This document shows positions 1 to 45,921 of a stretch of DNA of 45,921 nucleotides, one piece after another. The notes beneath the pieces are model-generated. The model ran no database searches. It was given only the letters and a program-made list of their open reading frames with translations, and was not told the origin of the DNA. The DNA is from a virus: positions 1 through 45,921 of IMG/VR virus record IMGVR_UViG_3300030060_001743; one strand, given 5' to 3'. The number at the start of each line of letters is the position of its first letter. Positions within the stretch are counted from its first letter, which is position 1. The position numbers were made by a program, and so were the translations under genes.

Positions 1-3000
1 GTATATCCAAAAGATGTAATTCTATCATTGATTGCTGCAGAAGTCATTAAATGGTCATCTACATCATTAAACTCTCCACCTAAATCAATATCATTTACTG
101 CGTGTCCACCAAGAGTTAAGTTACCTGCTGTAGTGAATCCAGCTGCAGTTATTGTTCCGCTCGTTGTGTCATTAGCATTATTTTTAATAAAATCATCTGG
201 TATTCTTGCTGAAGCAAGAGTTCCAGATACCACTTTACTTGCAGCAATATCATCTGCTACTGCTAAATCACCTAAACCTAAATCACTTCTTGTTTCAGAT
301 GCACTTCGTCCCTCAATAGTATTTGCATCAGTAAATTTAGCAAAATCATTGTCTACAGGGCTACCGCTTGTATCTACAGTACCAGTATTAGTTGTATAAC
401 CAAAGGCTTGTATTCTATCATTAACACCTGCAGATGTCATAATGTGAGAATCATTATCAGTAAACTCCCCAGAATCATCTACACCAGTAATTGTATTACC
501 GTCAAGAGTAAACCCACCAGTTAATGTTGATGTGCCACCAACTTTTAATGCTCCACCAGCATAAATACCCTCTTCGTGTGCAAATCCATAAGTGTCTAAA
601 TCTTCTAATTGATTTCCGTGTAAAGAATAACCACTAATAGTATTTTCTAATGTAGGCGTATGTACTGTATGGTCTGCATAATGAGCATCATCTCCCATAC
701 GAAATATTTTTACATCATAAGAGGAACTTACTGTTACATAAACTTGAAGAACTTTTTCTCCATAAGTATTATCACTATCTTGACTTAATACTCTAACACC
801 AGTTATTCTATTACTATGTCCACCACAATTTATAACAGTAAAGTTGCTATCAGCATAACTTCTTAACCAATGTATTCTAATAAATCCGTGGTCGCCAGAA
901 TCTCCATCTGTAACTAATATTTCTCCAGCTCTTCTACCACTTGTATTTGTAGCTACTGTTATCCAACCTGGACCTACTGTAGCAGAAGCACTTCCTTCTC
1001 TTCTAAAAAATCTTGTTGAATTATAATTATCTAATGTATCAGCATTAATACCCAAAGCATCTATATCAGATTTAGTTTGGTCTGCAGTAGCACTTGCCTC
1101 TATTCCGTCTAACTTACTATGGTCAGAACTTGTAAATGCAACAGATGTAGTTCCATTAATAGTAAGTGCATCAGTTTCTAATGTACCGTCTACGTCTACG
1201 TTTCCAGATATGTCAAGACTAGCTGCTGTTACAGTACCAGATGTAGTAAATCCAGCAGCAGTTATAGTACCACTTGTAGTATCATTAGCATTATTTTTTA
1301 AGAAAACATCATTTACATTAAAAGTTGTTCCGCTTAAAGATAAATTTGTACCAGCACTGTAAGTAGTGTTATCATTAGCAGTCATATCATCAACCACTAA
1401 ATCGATAGTACCGTCTCCGTCTTGGTAGGTTGCAGATACTCTAGTCTCCGTATTAGAAGAGAACATAGCTCCAACAATGTCTTGAACATTTTCTGTAGAT
1501 AGTTGCGTATTATTAGTTGTAATACTGCCACCTAAAGATACAGACGTTCCGTCAATAGTGATTGCACTTTCTGCTAGTTTGCTAATCGCAATAACAGCAT
1601 CAGAAGCAATTTCACTATCTGAAATACCTGTTACAGCAAATGTTAAATCGTATGGGTCTGCGTTACTACCATTAGATGTGTCAGTCCAATTAATATCAAT
1701 ACCAGCACCTTCTACAAACTTAACTTCTTTTCCGTGAGATATTGTTACCTCAGTACCGTCACCGTCTTCAAGTTGAAAAGTTGTAAGCTGGTTTGTATTT
1801 GTATCAGTTGTCATATCATCTACAACAAGGTCTATTGTACCGTCTCCGTCCTGATAAGACGCAGATATTCTAGTCTCGGTGTTGCTATTAAACATAGCAC
1901 CTACTATGTCTTGTACATTTTCTGTTGTTAGTTGTGTATCAGTATCTAAATCATCAACAACTAAGTCTATTGTACCGTCGCCGTCTTGGTAGGTTGCAGT
2001 AATTCTTGTTTCTGTGTTACCACTGAACATATTCCCCACTATATCTTGAACTTGCTCAGTAGATAATTGAGTATTATCATTTGCTGCAGCTATAGTAACT
2101 GAACCACCAGATTCACTTATTGTAACATTTGAACCTGCAACAAAAGCTAATGTTTCAGAAGTGGCTAATGTATTACCACCTGCAGTTACTGTTCTTACGT
2201 GGTCGTTATCTGCTGATAAATCAATAGTTCCGTCTCCGTCTTGATATACAGCTGTAATGTTTGACTCAGTGTTACCGCCGAACATAGCACCAACAATGTC
2301 TTGTACTTGTTCTGTTGAAAGCTGAGTGTCGGTAGCTGCTATAGTTACAGCTCCTCCTGATTCTGAAATACTTATATTTGACCCTGCAGTAAATGCTAGT
2401 GTTTCACTACTACCCAAAGTATTACCACCAGCTGTAACTGTTCTTACACTACCTGTTGCTGTCATATCATCTACGACTAAGTCAATAGTACCGTCACCGT
2501 CCTGATAGGTTGCAGATATACGAGTTTCCGTATTGCTATCAAACATAGCTCCCACTATATCTTGTACTTGCTCGGTGCTCAACTGAGTATTATTTGTACT
2601 AATACTACCACCTAATGAAACTGAAGTGCCGTCTATAGTAATTGCACTTTCTGCTAACTTAGATATAGCTATTAAAGCGTCAGATGCTATGTTACTATCT
2701 GAAATACCTGAAATTCTATTTACAGGAATAGTTCCTGATGTCAGTAAGGCAGCACTATGATTACCTAAACTAAAAGTAGTTCCAGATAAACTCAATCCAG
2801 TACCAGCACTAAATGTATCTTCATAAGCTAATACTTTTGCAGTTCCCCAACTTGTATCACTTTGGTCTGCTAAATAATGTCTAATTTTTTGTTCTGATTT
2901 ATCAAATGCTAAAGCATTTACATCTCCACCAGTATCGTCAGAATATGTAGATAAAACTAATAAGTCTTGATAATTACTATCAGCAGTACCAGTTAATCCA

Positions 3001-6000
3001 GCCAATGAAGTGAAGTATGCTCTAACTTGTTTTTTACCATTAAAAGTAATAGCACTGGGTTTTACATCTCTATCATCTGTTGCTGGTAAATTATCTACAA
3101 CAAAGTCTACAGTACCGTCGCCGTCTACATACGATACACTAATACCAACTTCTGTATTACCAGAAAACATACCACCAGCAATATCTTCTACTTGTTCTGT
3201 AGACAACTGTGTATTGTTTGTAGTTATACTTCCTCCCAACGAAACTGAAGTTCCGTCAATAGTTATAGCACTTTCTGCTAGTTTACTAATTGCTATAGCT
3301 GCGTCAGATGCTACATTACTATCTGATACGCCTGAAATTCTTGCAACGGGAATAGTTCCTGATGTTAATAATGAAGCACTGTGATTACCTAAATTAATAG
3401 TTACTGTATCTGTTGCACCTACAACAGTTGATATTCCTGTACCTCCAGCTATATCTAAATTATTACCGTGTGCTATTACTTGGTCAGAACCACTATCAGC
3501 AGTTAATGTAAATGTTGTTAATTGATTTGTATTATCATTAGCTGTCATATCGTCAACCACGAGGTCAATCGTACCGTCACCGTCTTGGTATTCAACAGCA
3601 ATACGTGTTTCAGTGTTTGATGTGAACATAGCACCTACTATGTCCTGCACTTGTTCAGTAGATAATTGTGTGTTATTAGTTGTTATACTACCACCAAGAG
3701 AAACTGATGTACCGTCTATTGTAATAGCACTATTAGCAAGCTTAGAGTTTCCTATAGCTGAATCAGAAGCTAAGTTAGAATCTGCTATATCTGCTAATCT
3801 AGCTACTGGCACAGTGCCTGATGTAAGTAAAGCAGCACTATGATTTGGTACACTAGTTAAAAATGGTGTGTCATTATTAAACTGACTTAATTTTATTTCT
3901 GATACAAGTTTTCTTTTTTGATTTCCGTCATCAAGATATACTAACTCATCTGCAGAACCAACAATATCATCAGTTCCGTCTGTAAGTTCACTTAGGTCTA
4001 CATCTATAGTTGGTGTAGCTCCTTCTCCACTATTGTTTTGTAAATCTATTAGAGCACCTGCAGTTAATGTTGCAACATAATTACCAGTAGTGTGTGTAGT
4101 TAAATCAACACTATTATTAGCAATAGTTGTTGCAATACTTACATTACCACTACCGTTAAATGTAGTAGCAGTTGTACCTGTTACATCTCCTGTTAAACTT
4201 ATATCTCTACCTGTTGCTAGTGTTGTTGCTGTACTAGCATTACCAGTTACAGCACCTTCTAAATTTGCAACCAGTGTAGCCACTGCATATCCAGTACCAC
4301 CTGTATTTACAGTTGCTGAAGGTTCTGCTTGTAAATCTTTAAATAGTTTAAATTTTCCACTATCATTAGCATCTCTAAATAAACCTGCATATAAATCTTG
4401 TGAACCTGATGTATCATACAATCCATAAAAACCAATGTCTACAGAATCTGCACTATTATTATCTTTTGCTAATTTTATTAAGGGGTCTTGTACAACAAGA
4501 TTTTCTGTAGTTATTGTAACTAAATCACCATTTACAGTTAAGTCTCCAGCAATAGTAACATCATCTGGTAAACCAATAGTAAATGCAGTTCCTTCTCCTG
4601 CACTACCTGTTACTGCTATTTCATTAGATGTTCCTGCTACAGAAGCTGCATAGTTACCAACAGTCATTGAACCTAGTGTAATAAAATTATCTAATGATGT
4701 TTGACCTGTACCACCATTAGCTATTGGTAATGTTCCAGTAACATCTGCTGCAAGGTCTATTGCATTTCTAGTAATTGTTTGTCCACTAATTGTAATATAG
4801 TCTAGTGAGCCACTCAAAGAAACATTGGTACTATTATCTGTACCAGCTGGGTCTACACCTATCGTAGTTCTTACTGCTGTTGCATTTGCATCATCTACAA
4901 TACTTTTACCAAAAGTTGATATAGTAGTATTAGCAGGTAAAACAAATGTTTTTAAATCTGCGTCTACTTCACTATCCATAAGAGCACCTGCTGCAGTTAC
5001 GTTATCTGTATCTGTTACGTCTGCACTTGCTTCTATTGCATTTAATTTAGAGTGGTCATCATCTGTAAATACATTAGAATCAGAAGCTGCTTCTACAGCA
5101 GTTCTTATTTCTGCATTTGTTTGGTCTGCTGTTGCACTTGCTTCTATATTGTCAAGTTTATTTTTCAGTGTTGTTGTAAAATTATTATCTGTTTGACTAC
5201 TTACAGCAAAATCTAATGTTCCGTCTCCGTCTTCATAAGTTACAGCAATACCTGATTCTGTATTACTTGATACCATAGCTCCTACAATATCTTGTACTTC
5301 TTCACTAGATAGTTGAGTATTAGCTGTCATATCATCAACAACTAAATCAATAGTTCCGTCACCGTCCTCGTATGTAGCACTAATTCTTGTTTCTGTGTTG
5401 CTACTAAACATAGCTCCGACTATGTCTTGTACTTCTTCAGCAGAAAGTTGTGTATTGGTGTCGGCAGTCATATCGTCGACTACTAAGTCAATAGTCCCGT
5501 CCCCGTCTTGATAAGTAGCTGATATTCTAGTTTCTGTGTTAGAGCTAAACATAGCTCCTACAATGTCTTGCACTGCTTCAGTGCTTAAATTTGTATCTGT
5601 TACTGATTCTGTAGCTGTAGCAATACCAGTCACGTGTCCATTAGAATCTAATGTAATATCTTGTATATAAGTTCTACCACTGTTATCACTTGAACTAGCA
5701 GCTGATATACTAGGGTGAGCTGTCATATCATCTACGACTAAATCTATTGTTCCGTCTGAATCTTCATAGCTTACACTAATTCTAGTCTCAGTATTACTTG
5801 TAAACATAGCACCTACAATATCCTGAACTTGTTCAGAAGTTAATGTAGCTTCAATTTTAGAATCTAATTGTGTTTGTATATTAGATGTTACTCCGTCAAG
5901 GTAGTCAAATTCTGTAGCAGTTACGCCTGTAGCGTGTAAAGTATCTAAGTAATTTAATTCTACAACACTACCAGTATATCCGTCTAATACATTTAATTCT

Positions 6001-6209
6001 GCTGCAGTAGAAGTAATAGCAGTACCTGCAAGCTGTAATGTACTTGTACCTGTAATATTAACAGCTGCTGAACTAAGTTGTAATACACTAGCTGTACCTT
6101 CTCCGTCTTCAACATTTGTTAAACTCCCCGTGATTCCACTGTTACTGTTTGATACTTGTAATAAATCTTTATATGTATCTGATACTTTTTTACTTGTTAA
6201 TGTTGCCAT
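1..6209 (-). CDS. Giant modular tail fibre, N-terminal part (runs off left edge)
   Basis: This is the receptor-binding fibre of the virion. The frame is open from the ATG at 6209 (MATLTSKKVS) to base 1 with no stop, at least 2,069 residues. It holds LDG repeats near the N-terminus (ELNVLDG, ELNYLDT, EFDYLDG) and about 11 copies of a unit around QDIVGAMFSSNTETRISA followed by Y(Q/E)DGDGTIDLVVDDM. Next come Thr/Gly/Asn-rich spacers, a TENLVVQDPLIKLAKD block often seen in marine phage fibres, and twice a module ending NDRI(Q/T)(A/S)FGYT. GAGG lies 5 nt before the ATG, 2 nt after the previous stop. The C-terminal chaperone at 45,563-45,921 almost certainly belongs to the same gene. Confidence 0.9.
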   Translation of the reverse strand, partial: MATLTSKKVSDTYKDLLQVSNSNSGITGSLTNVEDGEGTASVLQLSSAAVNITGTSTLQLAGTAITSTAAELNVLDGYTGSVVELNYLDTLHATGVTATEFDYLDGVTSNIQTQLDSKIEATLTSEQVQDIVGAMFTSNTETRISVSYEDSDGTIDLVVDDMTAHPSISAASSSDNSGRTYIQDITLDSNGHVTGIATATESVTDTNLSTEAVQDIVGAMFSSNTETRISATYQDGDGTIDLVVDDMTADTNTQLSAEEVQDIVGAMFSSNTETRISATYEDGDGTIDLVVDDMTANTQLSSEEVQDIVGAMVSSNTESGIAVTYEDGDGTLDFAVSSQTDNNFTTTLKNKLDNIEASATADQTNAEIRTAVEAASDSNVFTDDDHSKLNAIEASADVTDTDNVTAAGALMDSEVDADLKTFVLPANTTISTFGKSIVDDANATAVRTTIGVDPAGTDNSTNVSLSGSLDYITISGQTITRNAIDLAADVTGTLPIANGGTGQTSLDNFITLGSMTVGNYAASVAGTSNEIAVTGSAGEGTAFTIGLPDDVTIAGDLTVNGDLVTITTENLVVQDPLIKLAKDNNSADSVDIGFYGLYDTSGSQDLYAGLFRDANDSGKFKLFKDLQAEPSATVNTGGTGYAVATLVANLEGAVTGNASTATTLATGRDISLTGDVTGTTATTFNGSGNVSIATTIANNSVDLTTHTTGNYVATLTAGALIDLQNNSGEGATPTIDVDLSELTDGTDDIVGSADELVYLDDGNQKRKLVSEIKLSQFNNDTPFLTSVPNHSAALLTSGTVPVARLADIADSNLASDSAIGNSKLANSAITIDGTSVSLGGSITTNNTQLSTEQVQDIVGAMFTSNTETRIAVEYQDGDGTIDLVVDDMTANDNTNQLTTFTLTADSGSDQVIAHGNNLDIAGGTGISTVVGATDTVTINLGNHSASLLTSGTIPVARISGVSDSNVASDAAIAISKLAESAITIDGTSVSLGGSITTNNTQLSTEQVEDIAGGMFSGNTEVGISVSYVDGDGTVDFVVDNLPATDDRDVKPSAITFNGKKQVRAYFTSLAGLTGTADSNYQDLLVLSTYSDDTGGDVNALAFDKSEQKIRHYLADQSDTSWGTAKVLAYEDTFSAGTGLSLSGTTFSLGNHSAALLTSGTIPVNRISGISDSNIASDALIAISKLAESAITIDGTSVSLGGSISTNNTQLSTEQVQDIVGAMFDSNTETRISATYQDGDGTIDLVVDDMTATGSVRTVTAGGNTLGSSETLAFTAGSNISISESGGAVTIAATDTQLSTEQVQDIVGAMFGGNTESNITAVYQDGDGTIDLSADNDHVRTVTAGGNTLATSETLAFVAGSNVTISESGGSVTIAAANDNTQLSTEQVQDIVGNMFSGNTETRITATYQDGDGTIDLVVDDLDTDTQLTTENVQDIVGAMFNSNTETRISASYQDGDGTIDLVVDDMTTDTNTNQLTTFQLEDGDGTEVTISHGKEVKFVEGAGIDINWTDTSNGSNADPYDLTFAVTGISDSEIASDAVIAISKLAESAITIDGTSVSLGGSITTNNTQLSTENVQDIVGAMFSSNTETRVSATYQDGDGTIDLVVDDMTANDNTTYSAGTNLSLSGTTFNVNDVFLKNNANDTTSGTITAAGFTTSGTVTAASLDISGNVDVDGTLETDALTINGTTSVAFTSSDHSKLDGIEASATADQTKSDIDALGINADTLDNYNSTRFFRREGSASATVGPGWITVATNTSGRRAGEILVTDGDSGDHGFIRIHWLRSYADSNFTVINCGGHSNRITGVRVLSQDSDNTYGEKVLQVYVTVSSSYDVKIFRMGDDAHYADHTVHTPTLENTISGYSLHGNQLEDLDTYGFAHEEGIYAGGALKVGGTSTLTGGFTLDGNTITGVDDSGEFTDNDSHIMTSAGVNDRIQAFGYTTNTGTVDTSGSPVDNDFAKFTDANTIEGRSASETRSDLGLGDLAVADDIAASKVVSGTLASARIPDDFIKNNANDTTSGTITAAGFTTAGNLTLGGHAVNDIDLGGEFNDVDDHLMTSAAINDRITSFGY

Positions 6210-18921: not shown

Positions 18922-20472
18922 ATGGCTTTCATAACGAAAAAGCATAACACAAACGGCTCGTCCCCGAGCGGTAGTAATGACGGGACTAGTCCAGGAAATA
19001 ACGAGATTAGTCTCGAAAACATACGCTCTTTGAACGTCAAGAAAGAGCTCAGACCACTAGCTCGAGACCTAGTCTCAAGGGCTCAAGGCTACGGCGTAAT
19101 CGATAGCCTTGACGCTAGTCAAGACCGAGAGAATATCAAGCGACAAAGCAAAGACAAGGTCGTCGACATTGTACTCGACCTGGCTCAGATGTGCGAGGAC
19201 AAGACGGGCAAAAAGCTCTATATTGACGGCAATAGTGGCAACACTGAGAGTACTACTGATAGTGGTAGCGGTCAAGGTGGTCAAGGTCAAGGCGGTGGGG
19301 GTATACCCGACCTGAAAGACCTAGCTCAGACGAAGTCTGGGACTGGTGCTCAAGGTGGTAGCGGTGGCTCTAGTAGCGACGGCACTAGTAATGAAGGCGA
19401 CGGAGACGGCGACGACGATACTAGTACTGACGACACTAGTACTGAGCCTTCCGAGCCTAGCACTGACCCGAACGACCCGCCGACAATGCAAGACATACAA
19501 GAGCTAATTCAGTCGGCATTAACTCAAACCAAGGTAGTGCCAAAGCCAACTACTACGCCGTCGGCTAGTGGTAAGCTCGAGCACTGGCAAATGCCGTTGC
19601 TCAAGGCTATTGTCGACACAAATAGACAAGCTCTACTTGTGGGTGGTGCGGGTACTGGAAAGACGACTATTGCCGAGCAAATAGCTCAGTACTTAGGCTT
19701 TGATGTCGACAAGCAATTCTATTCTATCTCGCTAAGTAGCGGAGTTTCCGAGGCTCACTTGACTGGACGTATGAATATGAAGGGCGAATTTATCGACACT
19801 GAATTCTTGAACATAGTCGAGAACGGCGGGGTTATTCTACTCGACGAGTTTGATAACGCCGACCCCGACGTATTGGTCGGGCTTAATTCGCTATTAGCTA
19901 ACGACGTAATGAGCACCCCGCTCAGACGTGGGAACGAGATAGCGAGACGAGCCAAGAATTGCTACATTATAGCGACGGCTAATACCTGGGGCAACGGCTC
20001 TAGTGGCTCGGCGGGTTATGTCCGTAAGCAACTAGATACGGCGACACTAGACCGATTTGTATGTAGCAAAATGTATCTCGGTCAAGACCGACGCATTGAG
20101 AACTTGGTCTATGGTTTAGCCGACGAGAAACCAAGATACCCTAAGAGTTTCGAAACTCTAGCCGACAATAGTCCGAAGGGTATTATGCAAGAGGTCAAGA
20201 AATTGCGTACAAGTCTACGAGCAATCAAGACTAGTGTCGACGACCCTAGACGAAATGTTCGCAAGATTGTGGGTATTCGAGCTAGTGCTCAAGGTGCAAA
20301 GTTAATACGTCAAGCTAACTTCGACTTCCGCTCAGTGCTCGAATTGTATCTCAGTAATTGGACGGACGACGAACTCGCTACTATCGAGGTCAGTAGAAAA
20401 CACAATACGAAAGACGACTACTTTCAATACGACTTTAGTCGCTTTTGTGAAAGCAATAGGTTAGCACAATGA
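18922..20472 (+). CDS. CobS/MoxR-type AAA+ ATPase, 516 aa
   Basis: The C-terminal half is an AAA+ module: Walker A GGAGTGKTT near residue 240, Walker B VILLDEFDNAD, sensor 1 IIATANTWG and arginine finger LDRF, as in CobS/MoxR/dynein-like ATPases that remodel a partner. The N-terminal 190 residues are unusual: a short helical domain, then a Gly/Ser/Thr/Asp linker of about 80 residues (GQGGQGQGGGG, DGDGDDDTSTDD). GC is about 47% in a sampled line, well above the structural genes. The stop overlaps the next gene as ATGA, tying it to its putative VWA-like partner. Confidence 0.85.
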   Translation: MAFITKKHNTNGSSPSGSNDGTSPGNNEISLENIRSLNVKKELRPLARDLVSRAQGYGVIDSLDASQDRENIKRQSKDKVVDIVLDLAQMCEDKTGKKLYIDGNSGNTESTTDSGSGQGGQGQGGGGIPDLKDLAQTKSGTGAQGGSGGSSSDGTSNEGDGDGDDDTSTDDTSTEPSEPSTDPNDPPTMQDIQELIQSALTQTKVVPKPTTTPSASGKLEHWQMPLLKAIVDTNRQALLVGGAGTGKTTIAEQIAQYLGFDVDKQFYSISLSSGVSEAHLTGRMNMKGEFIDTEFLNIVENGGVILLDEFDNADPDVLVGLNSLLANDVMSTPLRRGNEIARRAKNCYIIATANTWGNGSSGSAGYVRKQLDTATLDRFVCSKMYLGQDRRIENLVYGLADEKPRYPKSFETLADNSPKGIMQEVKKLRTSLRAIKTSVDDPRRNVRKIVGIRASAQGAKLIRQANFDFRSVLELYLSNWTDDELATIEVSRKHNTKDDYFQYDFSRFCESNRLAQ

Positions 20473-21437
20473 GCGTTAAATACGACGACTTAATCGAACA
20501 CAACGTCAAGGCGTACAACAAGCACGAGCTCGCCAAGCTTTGCAACGGCGGAGGTGCTCAAGTCAAGAGCTCGGCTCGTATCATAGCTATCGAGTATGAA
20601 AGTATCGACGATATGCTTAAGGTACTTAAGCAAGCCGACACTGATATATGGGAGCGAACTCTTGACCGCCAGTACGAGATGTGGTGGACAATGTCCGACG
20701 TTATTGACATTGAAGGTAGGCAAGAGCAACTCGATATAATACGTCGAGGTTATAGCACGACGAGTATATACGAGCACTACACCGAGCTCAAGCGTAAGCT
20801 CAACGCTAACCCCGACAACTTAGAACGTTTGGGTGCTATGGGTGTTGATTGCCGTCGTAAACGACGAGCCGACCTTGCGGGGTGTATCGTCAACATAGAT
20901 AAGGCTATGGCGGGTCTCGACCCTATGGAAAGTCTCAAGCGTCAAAACCAGTCCAAATGTGTGAGGGTATTTATAGACCTTGCTAGGCTTGCAGACGTAG
21001 AGCCCGAGCACATACTCGAGAGCTCTTGCTATGCTATTGCCGTCGCTAATACTCTTGAGGAAAAAGGTTATGCCGTCGAGATAAAGTTCGGCACTACCAA
21101 CTACAACTACGGGCTCAATGGTTGTGGTCGACATAATACAAGCGACGGAGGTAGTGTGATTGTCCGTACTTCCTTCACGGCTAAGAGACCCGACGAGCCA
21201 GTCAACGAGGCTAAGCTCTTGACCTTCTCGTCAGTAGGTATCTTTCGAGACTTCATATTCGATACTAGACGACGTATTCTCGGTCAAGGTAGTATGGGCT
21301 CAAGTCTCTACTCGGTAATTAGACCCGCAAACAACGAGGAATTCTACCGAGAGTTTGCCGATTGTGATGTCTATGTCGGACACAACTCAAGTCTCGAGAC
21401 TATCATCACGGGTATTGAAGGCGTGCTATTGTCCTAG
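20469..21437 (+). CDS. Partner of the AAA+ ATPase, degenerate VWA-like protein, 322 aa
   Basis: Starts on ATGA within the ATPase stop. Residues about 160-250 have a Rossmann-like pattern: a strand with CVRVFIDLARLADV in the place of a MIDAS loop, a helix (SSCYAIAVANTLEEKGYAV), then EIKFGT, and later LLTFSSVGIFRDFIF. This resembles the phage proteins that accompany MoxR/CobS-like ATPases (DUF7192-type), where the metal site is often lost; here DxSxS is not intact. The N-terminal helical part may bind the ATPase. Its cellular target is unknown. Confidence 0.65.
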   Translation: MSVKYDDLIEHNVKAYNKHELAKLCNGGGAQVKSSARIIAIEYESIDDMLKVLKQADTDIWERTLDRQYEMWWTMSDVIDIEGRQEQLDIIRRGYSTTSIYEHYTELKRKLNANPDNLERLGAMGVDCRRKRRADLAGCIVNIDKAMAGLDPMESLKRQNQSKCVRVFIDLARLADVEPEHILESSCYAIAVANTLEEKGYAVEIKFGTTNYNYGLNGCGRHNTSDGGSVIVRTSFTAKRPDEPVNEAKLLTFSSVGIFRDFIFDTRRRILGQGSMGSSLYSVIRPANNEEFYREFADCDVYVGHNSSLETIITGIEGVLLS

Positions 21438-43536: not shown

Positions 43537-43585
43537 TTAGATTATACTTTCGTCTTTTACCAGATAATTTAGTTACTTTAATCAT
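43475..43585 (-). CDS. Overlapping very basic peptide, 36 aa
   Basis: Starts on ATGA with the stop of the thioredoxin-like gene, encodes MIKVTKLSGKRRKYNLNG and then a Lys-rich tail, and overlaps the start of the 59-aa gene by 62 nt in another frame. Both frames read through the same A-rich DNA as Lys. It could be a gene in its own right or a coupling frame. Confidence 0.45.
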   Translation of the reverse strand: MIKVTKLSGKRRKYNLNGKKKKKSKKKKLRKTKSYK

Positions 43586-43968
43586 CTGATTTCTTTTTTA
43601 ATCTTATCAAATACTTCTTTTTCATCAAACCTCATACTAATACCAGGTTCATATCTCATAACTTCTTCACCTTCTTTAAGAATTATAATAGTAGGAACTA
43701 CTTTAATACCCCACTCTTTTTGTACAACAGCACCTATAGTTTTATTACTTAAATCTATTTCTGCTACGTAGCAAAGGTCAGCAAGTTGCTCTATGCCGAC
43801 TCTATTTTTATAATTCCAAGAAGCATTAACTTGTACTACTGAGCACTTCTGTACATTTAGTGCTTGTATTTCTTGAAAGCTAGTTAAGTTGACTGACTGT
43901 GAGTGCAACCAAGATAGCGACAAGAACAAAGTTAATCCCAAGTATGATATAAATTTGCTGTTCATCAT
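43582..43968 (-). CDS. Exported thioredoxin-fold protein without CxxC, 128 aa
   Basis: GAGG 4 nt before the ATG. A signal peptide (SYLGLTLFLSLSWLHSQS, cleavage near residue 24) precedes a thioredoxin-like domain: SVVQVNASWNYKN where WCxxC would stand, CYVAEIDLSN, and GIKVVPTIIILKEGEEV with the cis-Pro. Without the two redox Cys it cannot be an ordinary disulfide reductase. It may act as a binding or periplasmic lysis-related protein. It lies next to a membrane protein gene. Confidence 0.7.
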   Translation of the reverse strand: MMNSKFISYLGLTLFLSLSWLHSQSVNLTSFQEIQALNVQKCSVVQVNASWNYKNRVGIEQLADLCYVAEIDLSNKTIGAVVQKEWGIKVVPTIIILKEGEEVMRYEPGISMRFDEKEVFDKIKKEIR

Positions 43969-43974
43969 TTAACC

Positions 43975-44271
43975 TCATTTGTTATTCATATCTATTAGAG
44001 TTTCAGTGATAGCTCTAGTATCTGTTTTGATGTCATCTACTTTTTCTTCAAGCTTATCTACTTTACCTTCTGTGTTTAAAATTGAATCACGTATCATCTG
44101 GTCTTTTAAGTCATATTCCATACGTGAAACTTCTGGTTCTGGTAATTCTTTAGCTAATTCTATTTCTGCTTGTAGAGAATACCACATACCAATAATCATA
44201 CCCACAGTTACAAGTATACTGATAGCTGTTTCTAATGATAAAGTAAACTTAGTGTCTTTACCTACTTCCAT
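43975..44271 (-). CDS. Membrane protein with coiled coil, 98 aa (holin/spanin-like)
   Basis: Residues about 12-32 form one membrane helix (LETAISILVTVGMIIGMWYS). The remainder is a charged coiled coil (KVDKLEEKVDDIKTDTRAIT). The design of one N-terminal span plus a coiled coil is shared by inner-membrane spanins and some holins. It overlaps the upstream gene by TAATG and lies next to the exported thioredoxin-like gene, which could form a lysis pair with it. This is inference. Confidence 0.65.
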   Translation of the reverse strand: MEVGKDTKFTLSLETAISILVTVGMIIGMWYSLQAEIELAKELPEPEVSRMEYDLKDQMIRDSILNTEGKVDKLEEKVDDIKTDTRAITETLIDMNNK

Positions 44272-44387
44272 TACTTTTTGCTCCTATACTTTTTCTTTGT
44301 ACCACGTCCGTTTCCTTGACGTGTTTTTTTCATATTACGTTTCTTTTTTGGTTTTTTTAATCCCATACCTTTTCTTTTGCCGTACAT
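44271..44387 (-). CDS. Very basic small protein, 38 aa
   Basis: GGGG 6 nt before the ATG. MYGKRKGMGLKKPKKK followed by an Arg/Gly/Lys-rich tail. Its TAA overlaps the next ATG. Possibly a DNA-binding capsid peptide like the other basic genes downstream. Confidence 0.65.
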   Translation of the reverse strand: MYGKRKGMGLKKPKKKRNMKKTRQGNGRGTKKKYRSKK

Positions 44388-44388
44388 T

Positions 44389-45519
44389 TTATTCCCCTAT
44401 TTCTGAGTGAACTAATACGCCACCTGCGTAAAAGTTATTATTTTTTGTTAGTATTGTATAAGTTTCTAATTCATTTGGTGAATCTAAATAATCTTTCACT
44501 TCTCTAATTTTATCCATAAATCTAATTTTATCACCTTTTTGTATTTCTTGTGCATCTAGATTATATAATTCTTTTGCCTTTGCAGGGTCTAAACAAACCA
44601 TAGTTCCGTCTTCTTTATATATAGGGTGGTCTTTAGTTATTGTAATACCTTTATTTATAGTTACAGTATTGCCGTGTTTATATTGTATGTCGTCCATATC
44701 TTCAAATCTGTATACTACTAAGTCTGTGTGCATAGGTTTTTCTATTTTTAAAATAGGTGCTTCTTCTATAGAGTTTGTTTCAAAGTTATATGACATTACT
44801 AAATCTCCAACTTCAAGTTCTGATATATGTTTGTATCCACCTTGTGTATTTACAGGAACATACTCTCCAATACAAAATCCACCAAAACTTGTTACACTAG
44901 TAAATACAGTCATATCGGTATTCGTTACACTATTTACTGTCCAAGTTAAAGTTCTTGTTACAGTTTCAGTCTGTACTGCGTGTGGTTTAAAAGCAAATCT
45001 TGCGTTAATAGTATCATTTGATGAACTCATACTTACACTACCTATAGCAGAATTATTTACTATAGTTTCATACCCACTACCACTATTATTTGTACCACCA
45101 CCAAAACTACTTGTAGCAGTTCCTGGGTCATTTATAGCTGATATAGCAACTAAACAACTTCCTCTTACAGTTCCAGAATTTGTGGTTGAATCTATTCCTA
45201 CATTACCAGTTGGGTCTGTCATATCGTTTGTACTTAATGCGTGTGTAGTTACTCCGTCACCAGGGCTACTACCTACAAATCTTATTGTAGCATCACTCCA
45301 AGTTCCAAATGATGTATTACCAGCTTTGTCGTGGTCGTAACTATAAAACTCAGTCATAGCGTGTGGTGCACTTTCGTCTGGTCTATCTGCACTTGCATTA
45401 TTGGTATTAATAGCTGCTATTGTACCGTCAGATGCTTCTTTCAAAGATATAGAACCAGAATCTCCTAACTCACTTCTTATATCACTCATTGATATTTGCC
45501 CTGATGAAGTTAAAGCCAT
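44389..45519 (-). CDS. Virion protein with C-terminal Hint (intein-like) domain, 376 aa
   Basis: Residues 1-215 start SSGQISMSDIRSELG, a common start of phage tail proteins, and continue as Ser/Thr/Gly-rich beta sequence. Residues 216-376 form a Hint module: Cys216 (FCIGEYVPV), ISELEVGDLVMSYN, block B ITKDHPIY (TxxH), QKGDKIRF, and the end block NNNFYAGGVLVHSEIGE. Inteins end in HN plus Cys/Ser/Thr; here it is His-Ser with only four residues after, so cleavage or ligation chemistry rather than full splicing is likely. It lies next to the fibre gene. Confidence 0.8.
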   Translation of the reverse strand: MALTSSGQISMSDIRSELGDSGSISLKEASDGTIAAINTNNASADRPDESAPHAMTEFYSYDHDKAGNTSFGTWSDATIRFVGSSPGDGVTTHALSTNDMTDPTGNVGIDSTTNSGTVRGSCLVAISAINDPGTATSSFGGGTNNSGSGYETIVNNSAIGSVSMSSSNDTINARFAFKPHAVQTETVTRTLTWTVNSVTNTDMTVFTSVTSFGGFCIGEYVPVNTQGGYKHISELEVGDLVMSYNFETNSIEEAPILKIEKPMHTDLVVYRFEDMDDIQYKHGNTVTINKGITITKDHPIYKEDGTMVCLDPAKAKELYNLDAQEIQKGDKIRFMDKIREVKDYLDSPNELETYTILTKNNNFYAGGVLVHSEIGE

Positions 45520-45566
45520 TACTTACCCTGCAGTTTCTTAATTAATCTTATTACAAAACCAATCAT
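45519..45566 (-). CDS. Possible 15-aa cationic micropeptide
   Basis: The frame MIGFVIRLIKKLQGK fills exactly the gap between fibre and Hint genes. Its ATG overlaps the fibre stop (ATGA) and its stop overlaps the next ATG (TAATG). It may be a coupling frame rather than a functional product; sequence alone cannot decide. Confidence 0.3.
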   Translation of the reverse strand: MIGFVIRLIKKLQGK

Positions 45567-45921
45567 TTTTTTAACTCTTCTATCTCTTCTTTAAGTTCTT
45601 TGATTGCTTCGATTAACAATGGTACAAGCTTTTCATATTTAACAGCTTTGTACCCAGTGTCTCTTGTTTGTACTACTTCTGGTAATACTTCTTCAATCTC
45701 TTGTGCTATAACACCTACGTCGTGTCCTTCGTTACCGTGTATAGTTTTCTTCTCTTCTTTTGTTAATGGTTTCCAATCAAACTCTACACCACTAATCTTA
45801 GAAACTTTATCAAGAGCATTATCAAGTGGTTTAATATTTTCTTTTAATCTTTTATCTGATGATGAAAATGCAACAATGTCATTACCAGCATCTATTCTAC
45901 CGTCAGTTCCGTTGCAACTAA
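45563..45921 (-). CDS. Tail fibre C-terminus, S74 intramolecular chaperone (runs off right edge)
   Basis: The frame enters from the right edge and reads NGTDGRIDAGNDIVAFSSSD, KRLKENIKPLDNALDKV, GHDVGVIAQEIEEVLPEVV and a coiled-coil end (LLIEAIKELKEEIEELKK). AFSSSDKRLKENI is the self-cleavage motif of peptidase S74 chaperones, which help fibre trimers fold and are then released. It must be the end of the fibre starting at 6209. In frame it needs a number of missing bases equal to 2 modulo 3 at the contig junction. Confidence 0.88.
   Translation of the reverse strand, partial: SCNGTDGRIDAGNDIVAFSSSDKRLKENIKPLDNALDKVSKISGVEFDWKPLTKEEKKTIHGNEGHDVGVIAQEIEEVLPEVVQTRDTGYKAVKYEKLVPLLIEAIKELKEEIEELKK

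Follow-up and report, generated by a model that had tools for sequence, protein, structure and literature searches.

The fibre-neighbour gene and its locus

We analysed a window of 45,921 nucleotides (bases 1-45921 of a 46,373-base IMG/VR virus record). Close to its right-hand end lies a minus-strand open reading frame of 376 codons, with its ATG at 45519 and its stop codon at 44389-44391, which we regard as a real gene. The coordinates of this gene, of its parts and of its neighbours are collected in Table 1. The S74 fibre ends 43 bases upstream on the same strand, in agreement with the original prediction, which had placed the gene beside the fibre. Most of this very long fibre is encoded at the opposite end of the record, as the record apparently breaks within the fibre gene. 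The fibre gene (window 3-6209 plus 45563-45919) encodes more than 2,000 aa, is highly repetitive and is broken by the record ends; its counterpart in locus L046 is interrupted at 1922-1931 by a run of 10 N.

Table 1. Features of the fibre-neighbour gene and its surroundings, in window coordinates
Feature	Position	Strand	Basis or remark
Whole gene, encoding the 376-aa fibre neighbour that ends in a Hint	44389..45519	minus	
Conserved N-terminal segment, residues 1-66 (MALTSSGQISMSDI...TEFYSYDHD)	45322..45519	minus	most conserved part of the N-domain alignment
Predicted Ig-like beta-sandwich, residues 68-213, variable between phages	44881..45318	minus	AlphaFold2 model, generic Ig-like matches
Predicted cut, Phe215-Cys216	44872..44877	minus	Gly-Phe/Gly-Leu before Cys in 52/54
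Hint domain, residues 216-376	44392..44874	minus	Pfam, family profile, AlphaFold2 model, fold superposition
Block B, Thr295-Lys-Asp-His298 (TxxH)	44626..44637	minus	Thr, Asp and His in 57/57
Block F, residues 353-365	44425..44463	minus	Thr355 replaces Asp F:4, Asn replaces block-F His
Block G, VLVHS372-E373	44401..44418	minus	Ser replaces terminal Asn; Ser and Glu in 57/57, His in 53/57
Fibre C-terminal end with S74 chaperone domain	45563..45919	minus	Pfam Peptidase_S74 E 2e-20, synteny
98-aa gene; its sequence looks like a membrane segment and a coiled coil	43975..44271	minus	conserved beside the locus with or without Hint

Downstream, the Hint gene and the 98-aa gene are separated by a very basic 38-aa ORF (MYGKRKGMGLKKPKKKRNMKK..., window 44271-44387, minus strand), which resembles ORFs in L006, L021 and L072. 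Beyond the 98-aa gene comes a thioredoxin-like protein (window 43582-43968, minus strand) with a signal-peptide-like start and apparently without a CxxC motif, whose gene most relatives also retain beside the Hint locus. Far from the locus, at window 18922-21437 on the plus strand, an AAA-type ATPase-like gene precedes a VWA/CobT-like gene, both named by the look of their sequences.

Searches of IMG/VR identified relatives of the whole protein at 44 loci and of the Hint at no fewer than 80 loci. One of the records concerned (G009, locus L030; 71,600 bases) contains two separate major capsid protein matches and is thus either a chimeric contig or two viruses. Among the 50,697 phage records of INPHARED, nothing matched the window protein or its distant relative L255, and the N-terminal segment retrieved a single match with an E value of 0.4; no relative was found in GTDB genomes. 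At most loci with enough flank, the gene order is the S74 fibre, (small genes), the Hint protein or a Hint-less homologue, (small genes), the 98-aa gene and the thioredoxin-like gene. Among the neighbouring genes examined, we saw no partner gene specific to Hint-bearing loci.

The 376-aa protein has no PHROG match. AlphaFold2 modelled residues 1-66 poorly, and a fold search with the N-domain returned generic Ig-like matches only (best Z 8.8). Such a modelled Ig-like half would suit a structural or adhesive tail part, though it is no proof of one. From its position, we infer that the protein is a tail-type virion protein; the synteny with the S74 fibre and the Ig-like model would make it no more than a candidate tail-fibre partner or adhesin. 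The Hint itself is not tied to this N-terminal half. In L076, L078 and L081 the same Hint is attached to a different, shorter N-terminal part, and the distant relative L255/L256 (35% identity), which ends in ILVDSVALYKF, has yet another and directly follows a fibre of 1,043 aa whose end looks S74-like from its sequence. With both of these further N-terminal parts (L076/L078 and L255), the Hint family again comes after an S74 fibre, so that the link between fibre and Hint seems older than the present N-terminal domain.

A complete Hint domain with an altered C-terminal end

The original prediction held that the protein carries a full Hint module with a block A Cys, a block B TxxH and a terminal block that ends in His-Ser with four residues after it, and all of these were found. 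Cys216 opens block A (GGF-CIGEYVPV), the block F sequence, TYTILTKNNNFYAGG, is intein-like, and the protein ends in VLVHS372-EIGE. Beyond these motifs, Pfam PT-HINT (PF07591) matched residues 222-371 below threshold (E 0.0015, 19.2 bits; the score of the window protein ranged from 19.2 to 22.4 bits against a curated cut-off of 27.7), and the best PDB sequence match of a profile built from 24 relatives was the NrdJ-1 intein (E 9e-8).

The prediction had further proposed modelling residues 216-376. An AlphaFold2 model built from 26 relatives, in which the Hint half was well predicted, superposed on BIL domains, inteins and Hedgehog: Tetrahymena BIL2 (6y75; Z 21.3, 1.7 Å over 146 residues), Ssp DnaB (Z 19), NrdJ-1 (8ubs; Z 17.6), a Clostridium BIL (2lwy; Z 17.0) and Drosophila Hedgehog (1at0; Z 16.2). 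The superfamily matches (6y75 and 1at0) span 130-147 residues of the model. On the strength of this model as well as the motifs, we consider it confirmed that residues 216-376 form a complete Hint domain. In the superpositions, Cys216 aligns with residue 1 of several inteins and with Cys258 of Hedgehog. Ser372 aligns with the last aligned residue of NpuDnaE (137), Mtu RecA (440), GyrA (198) and gp41-1 (125), which we take to be their terminal Asn, and, counted from the aligned ends of 1at0 and 6tyy, with Cys400 of Hedgehog; superposition gives ranges only, so that these residue-level matches of Ser372 assume ungapped ends. From the alignment ranges at hand, no match of the invariant His264 to Hedgehog Asp303 could be obtained.

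To characterize conservation, we compared 57 distinct complete Hints with pairwise identity down to 36%. Cys216, Thr295, Asp297, His298, Thr355, Ser372 and Glu373 are invariant in all 57, and position 371 carries His in 53 sequences and Asn or Ser in the remaining 4. Loss of the catalytic residues in relatives, which had been named beforehand as grounds for abandoning the prediction, was not found, since Cys, TxxH and the terminal Ser occur in every one of these sequences. For three positions named in advance (Cys1, Thr B:7 and His B:10), the chance that all would be invariant is ~0.004. Inteins have Thr B:7 and His B:10 acting in step 1; coordination and C-terminal cleavage fall to Asp F:4, His F:13, His G:6 and Asn G:7, the last three of which act in step 3 of splicing (PMC4031507). 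In the tail Hints, F:4 is Thr, the block-F His is replaced by Asn, Asp or Lys and Asn G:7 by Ser, each in 57/57; all 11 RNR inteins compared retain Asp F:4, HNF and HN. The N-side set is thus frozen and the C-side set altered. Moreover, relatives have only ~2-6 residues beyond Ser372 and no C-extein, so there is nothing to splice to and splicing by the tail Hint is excluded by anatomy. Judged from these residues, Cys1, TxxH, Thr at F:4 and a terminal Ser define a type of Hint unable to splice, and N-side cleavage, which is what they allow, is likely. The altered end had originally been read as pointing to cleavage or to attachment of the tail domain to something else rather than to splicing: the case against splicing and for N-side cleavage is supported, while that for attachment is not.

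Homologues that end at the predicted cut

Merging the searches with the N-terminal domain yielded 54 Hint-bearing and 28 Hint-less proteins, 5 of the latter being cut by a contig end. Fifteen of the Hint-less proteins are short forms of the same N-terminal domain. The Hint-less homologues occupy the same locus as the Hint-bearing ones. In the alignment, the fifteen short forms extend ~0-2 residues beyond the position that precedes the Hint Cys in their relatives; their C-termini read SGL (three), TGL, SGF, GGFP, GGFAP, GGFDP, GGFLP, GGLQP, GGLFP (two), GVFQP and, in two, a Gly run plus Arg. Several stop exactly at Gly-Leu or Gly-Phe, at the residue preceding Cys216. In L039, a stop codon comes just after TGL and is followed by a remnant of the last 24 Hint residues. 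A search for a Hint in trans found none elsewhere in 5 of 6 Hint-less records, which are possibly fragments, and only the remnant in the sixth, L039. Since these homologues end at the predicted cut, the N-terminal protein works, in some phages at least, with the very end that cleavage by the Hint would make, which favours plain release. The Gly-Phe or Gly-Leu ahead of Cys may also be conserved for other reasons.

These homologues also bear on the idea that the Hint folds but stays uncut, as a tip or spacer domain whose catalysis goes unused and whose residues are kept for the stability of the fold. Consistent with such a domain, 26 of 161 Hint positions are invariant in the 57 distinct sequences, many of them non-catalytic, and the catalytic activity is itself a prediction. 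Stability alone, however, does not predict an N-side set that is kept beside a C-side set that has changed, nor Hint-less forms that terminate at the cut, and we regard an uncut domain as improbable.

Along the supported branches of a tree built from 68 N-terminal domains, the Hint switches between present and absent at least 4 times. This patchy presence, the remnant in L039 and the fact that the top PDB sequence match is an intein would all be expected of an intein in decay, or of a selfish Hint, that does nothing for the phage. Such an element is very hard to reconcile with the rest of the data, as the Hint has neither an endonuclease nor a C-extein, its catalytic residues are invariant, it keeps the same fibre-adjacent place with three kinds of N-terminal part, and close pairs point to purifying selection. 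For the 25 pairs whose Hint dS is lowest, dN/dS of the Hint was 0.015-0.27; the most telling, L026 versus L034, L079 and L080, gave 0.015-0.033 for the Hint and 0.30-0.33 for the N-terminal part. Across all pairs the medians lay close together, at 0.46 for the Hint and 0.53 for the N-domain, a point against an active module, although dS is near saturation in many pairs and unreliable at that distance. Judged by the close pairs, the Hint is under purifying selection.

The codon of Ser372 switches between TCN and AGY, with at least 8 changes. We considered this as a sign of strong selection on Ser372 and rejected it, because the AGY versions accompany other downstream genes and recombination of the 3' end may explain much of the switching. 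In eight loci (L001, L004, L011, L069, L070, L071, L091 and L093), the last Hint codons vary together with the downstream gene and read AGT GAG/GAA instead of TCA GAA, Ser-Glu being encoded in every version; this covariation points to recombination right at the Ser-Glu codons.

Predicted reaction and comparison with known systems

On cleavage, its timing, the acceptor, the location in the virion and the purpose of the Hint, we infer the following. Probably, the Hint cuts itself off and so releases the N-terminal fibre-neighbour protein, an activity predicted from sequence and model. It would be a single-cut self-processing module that goes no further than the first step of the reaction shared by inteins and Hedgehog. 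Aided by Thr295 and His298, Cys216 would attack the Phe215 carbonyl in an N-S acyl shift, and breakage of the resulting thioester would set free residues 1-215, now ending in Gly-Phe or Gly-Leu. The likeliest acceptor would be water or a small thiol, transfer to a partner being possible. As a covalent maturation step, this would make the Hint a removable C-terminal pro-domain, which plausibly caps or delays the protein until the fibre is assembled. Plain release agrees with the existence of Hint-less homologues and with the absence of any region that could bind an acceptor. One point against it is the invariance of Ser372-Glu373, for which plain hydrolysis has no need; the Ser may therefore take part in transfer.

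A Hedgehog-like transfer would pass the Phe215 thioester, perhaps via Ser372, to a specific acceptor, leaving the N-terminal protein covalently attached; candidates are perhaps a residue of the fibre, another virion protein, a lipid or a sugar. Three observations would suit a transfer: Ser372 is found where inteins have their terminal Asn and where Hedgehog, judged by the aligned ends, has Cys400; Ser-Glu is invariant; and the position beside the S74 fibre is constant even in the distant L255. Against this, only four residues follow the Hint, which leaves no acceptor-binding region, no Hint-specific partner gene was seen among the neighbouring genes examined, and the Hint-less homologues manage with a free Gly-Leu or Gly-Phe end. 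We thus view transfer as possible though doubtful, and the attachment of the tail domain to another molecule, as originally proposed, loses ground for the same absence of a partner gene among the neighbours examined and the same Hint-less ends. In its specific form, in which the Hint conjugates the fibre-associated protein via its Gly-Phe/Gly-Leu end to a virion or host acceptor with Ser372 as a second, Hedgehog-like catalytic residue, we think it unlikely.

If true, such processing would be a natural case of Hint chemistry providing phage tail maturation with a release or coupling step of its own. The open-access literature searched, outside which most subscription papers lie, contained inteins in phage enzymes and neither a Hint on a tail protein nor a description of Hint-driven release or coupling in phage tail maturation. 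Homologues with and without the Hint offer a clean natural comparison, and the predicted cut is one named bond. The tail Hint could also find use as a compact means of producing C-terminal thioesters.

Among known systems, the Hint superfamily is marked by the Hedgehog/intein fold, which the predicted model shows, and by an N-terminal Cys/Ser nucleophile with block B TxxH, present in 57/57. Class 1 inteins have a terminal Asn and a C-extein starting with Cys, Ser or Thr, whereas the tail Hint has Ser in 57/57, and intein-free homologues continue across the insertion site, whereas the Hint-less homologues stop there. NrdJ-1, the best PDB sequence match, is followed by Ser-Glu-Ile just as the tail Hint ends in Ser-Glu-Ile/Leu (window 44398-44406; L103:3996-5078; L160:4058-5107); SEI are the first C-extein residues of NrdJ-type RNR inteins, and the tail Hint end looks as if Asn had been deleted ahead of Ser-Glu-Ile. 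The distant L255 ends in Ser-Val rather than Ser-Glu-Ile. An origin from an NrdJ-type intein was not supported by the tree, which unites the tail Hints with L255 in a single clade and keeps the RNR inteins separate. NrdJ-1 and the other RNR inteins differ further in retaining Asp F:4, a His in block F and an Asn at the end.

The PT-HINT of polymorphic toxins (PF07591) shares the N-side residues and a weak, below-cut-off profile match; an example, P0002, ends in VHN ahead of a further domain, unlike the tail Hint. Matches from a Ruminococcus phage were rejected as family members, being PT-HINTs with a following domain instead: L183 4092-5789 (Ruminococcus phage NatCom_28775) has a PT-HINT-type domain ending in VHN plus a further C-terminal domain, a polymorphic-toxin-like layout. 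The S74 intramolecular chaperone is a C-terminal domain that cuts itself off phage fibres. It sits in the gene next door and differs from the Hint in fold and chemistry, involving no thioester.

The Hedgehog Hog domain resembles the tail Hint in its C-terminal position, its Cys1 and TxxH and its lack of a C-extein. Hedgehog uses Cys258 and TxxH, with a Cys400 that is absent from inteins (PMC9163320), and carries out the first shift only, after which an outside nucleophile acts (PMC7664689). Cys400 is the nucleophile that replaces the last Asn, where the tail Hint, by aligned ends only, has Ser372. Hog domains have a sterol-recognition region after the Hint, whereas the tail Hint has only 4 residues after Ser372, sits on a phage protein and has no known acceptor. 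BIL domains (types A and B) share with the tail Hint the fold, Cys1, TxxH and an expectation of cleavage over splicing (PMC4031507), and those of Tetrahymena (BIL2, 6y75) and Clostridium (2lwy) are among its closest folds. Type A ends in His-Asn, whereas the tail Hint ends in His-Ser; type B, in which cleavage is uncoupled from splicing, has no intein-like block G, and the tail Hint, which has lost the terminal Asn yet retains VLVH and so most of block G, may or may not belong to it; and the tail Hint differs from BIL domains in having no C-terminal flanking protein. Its chemistry would be that of the BIL and Hedgehog Hint domains.
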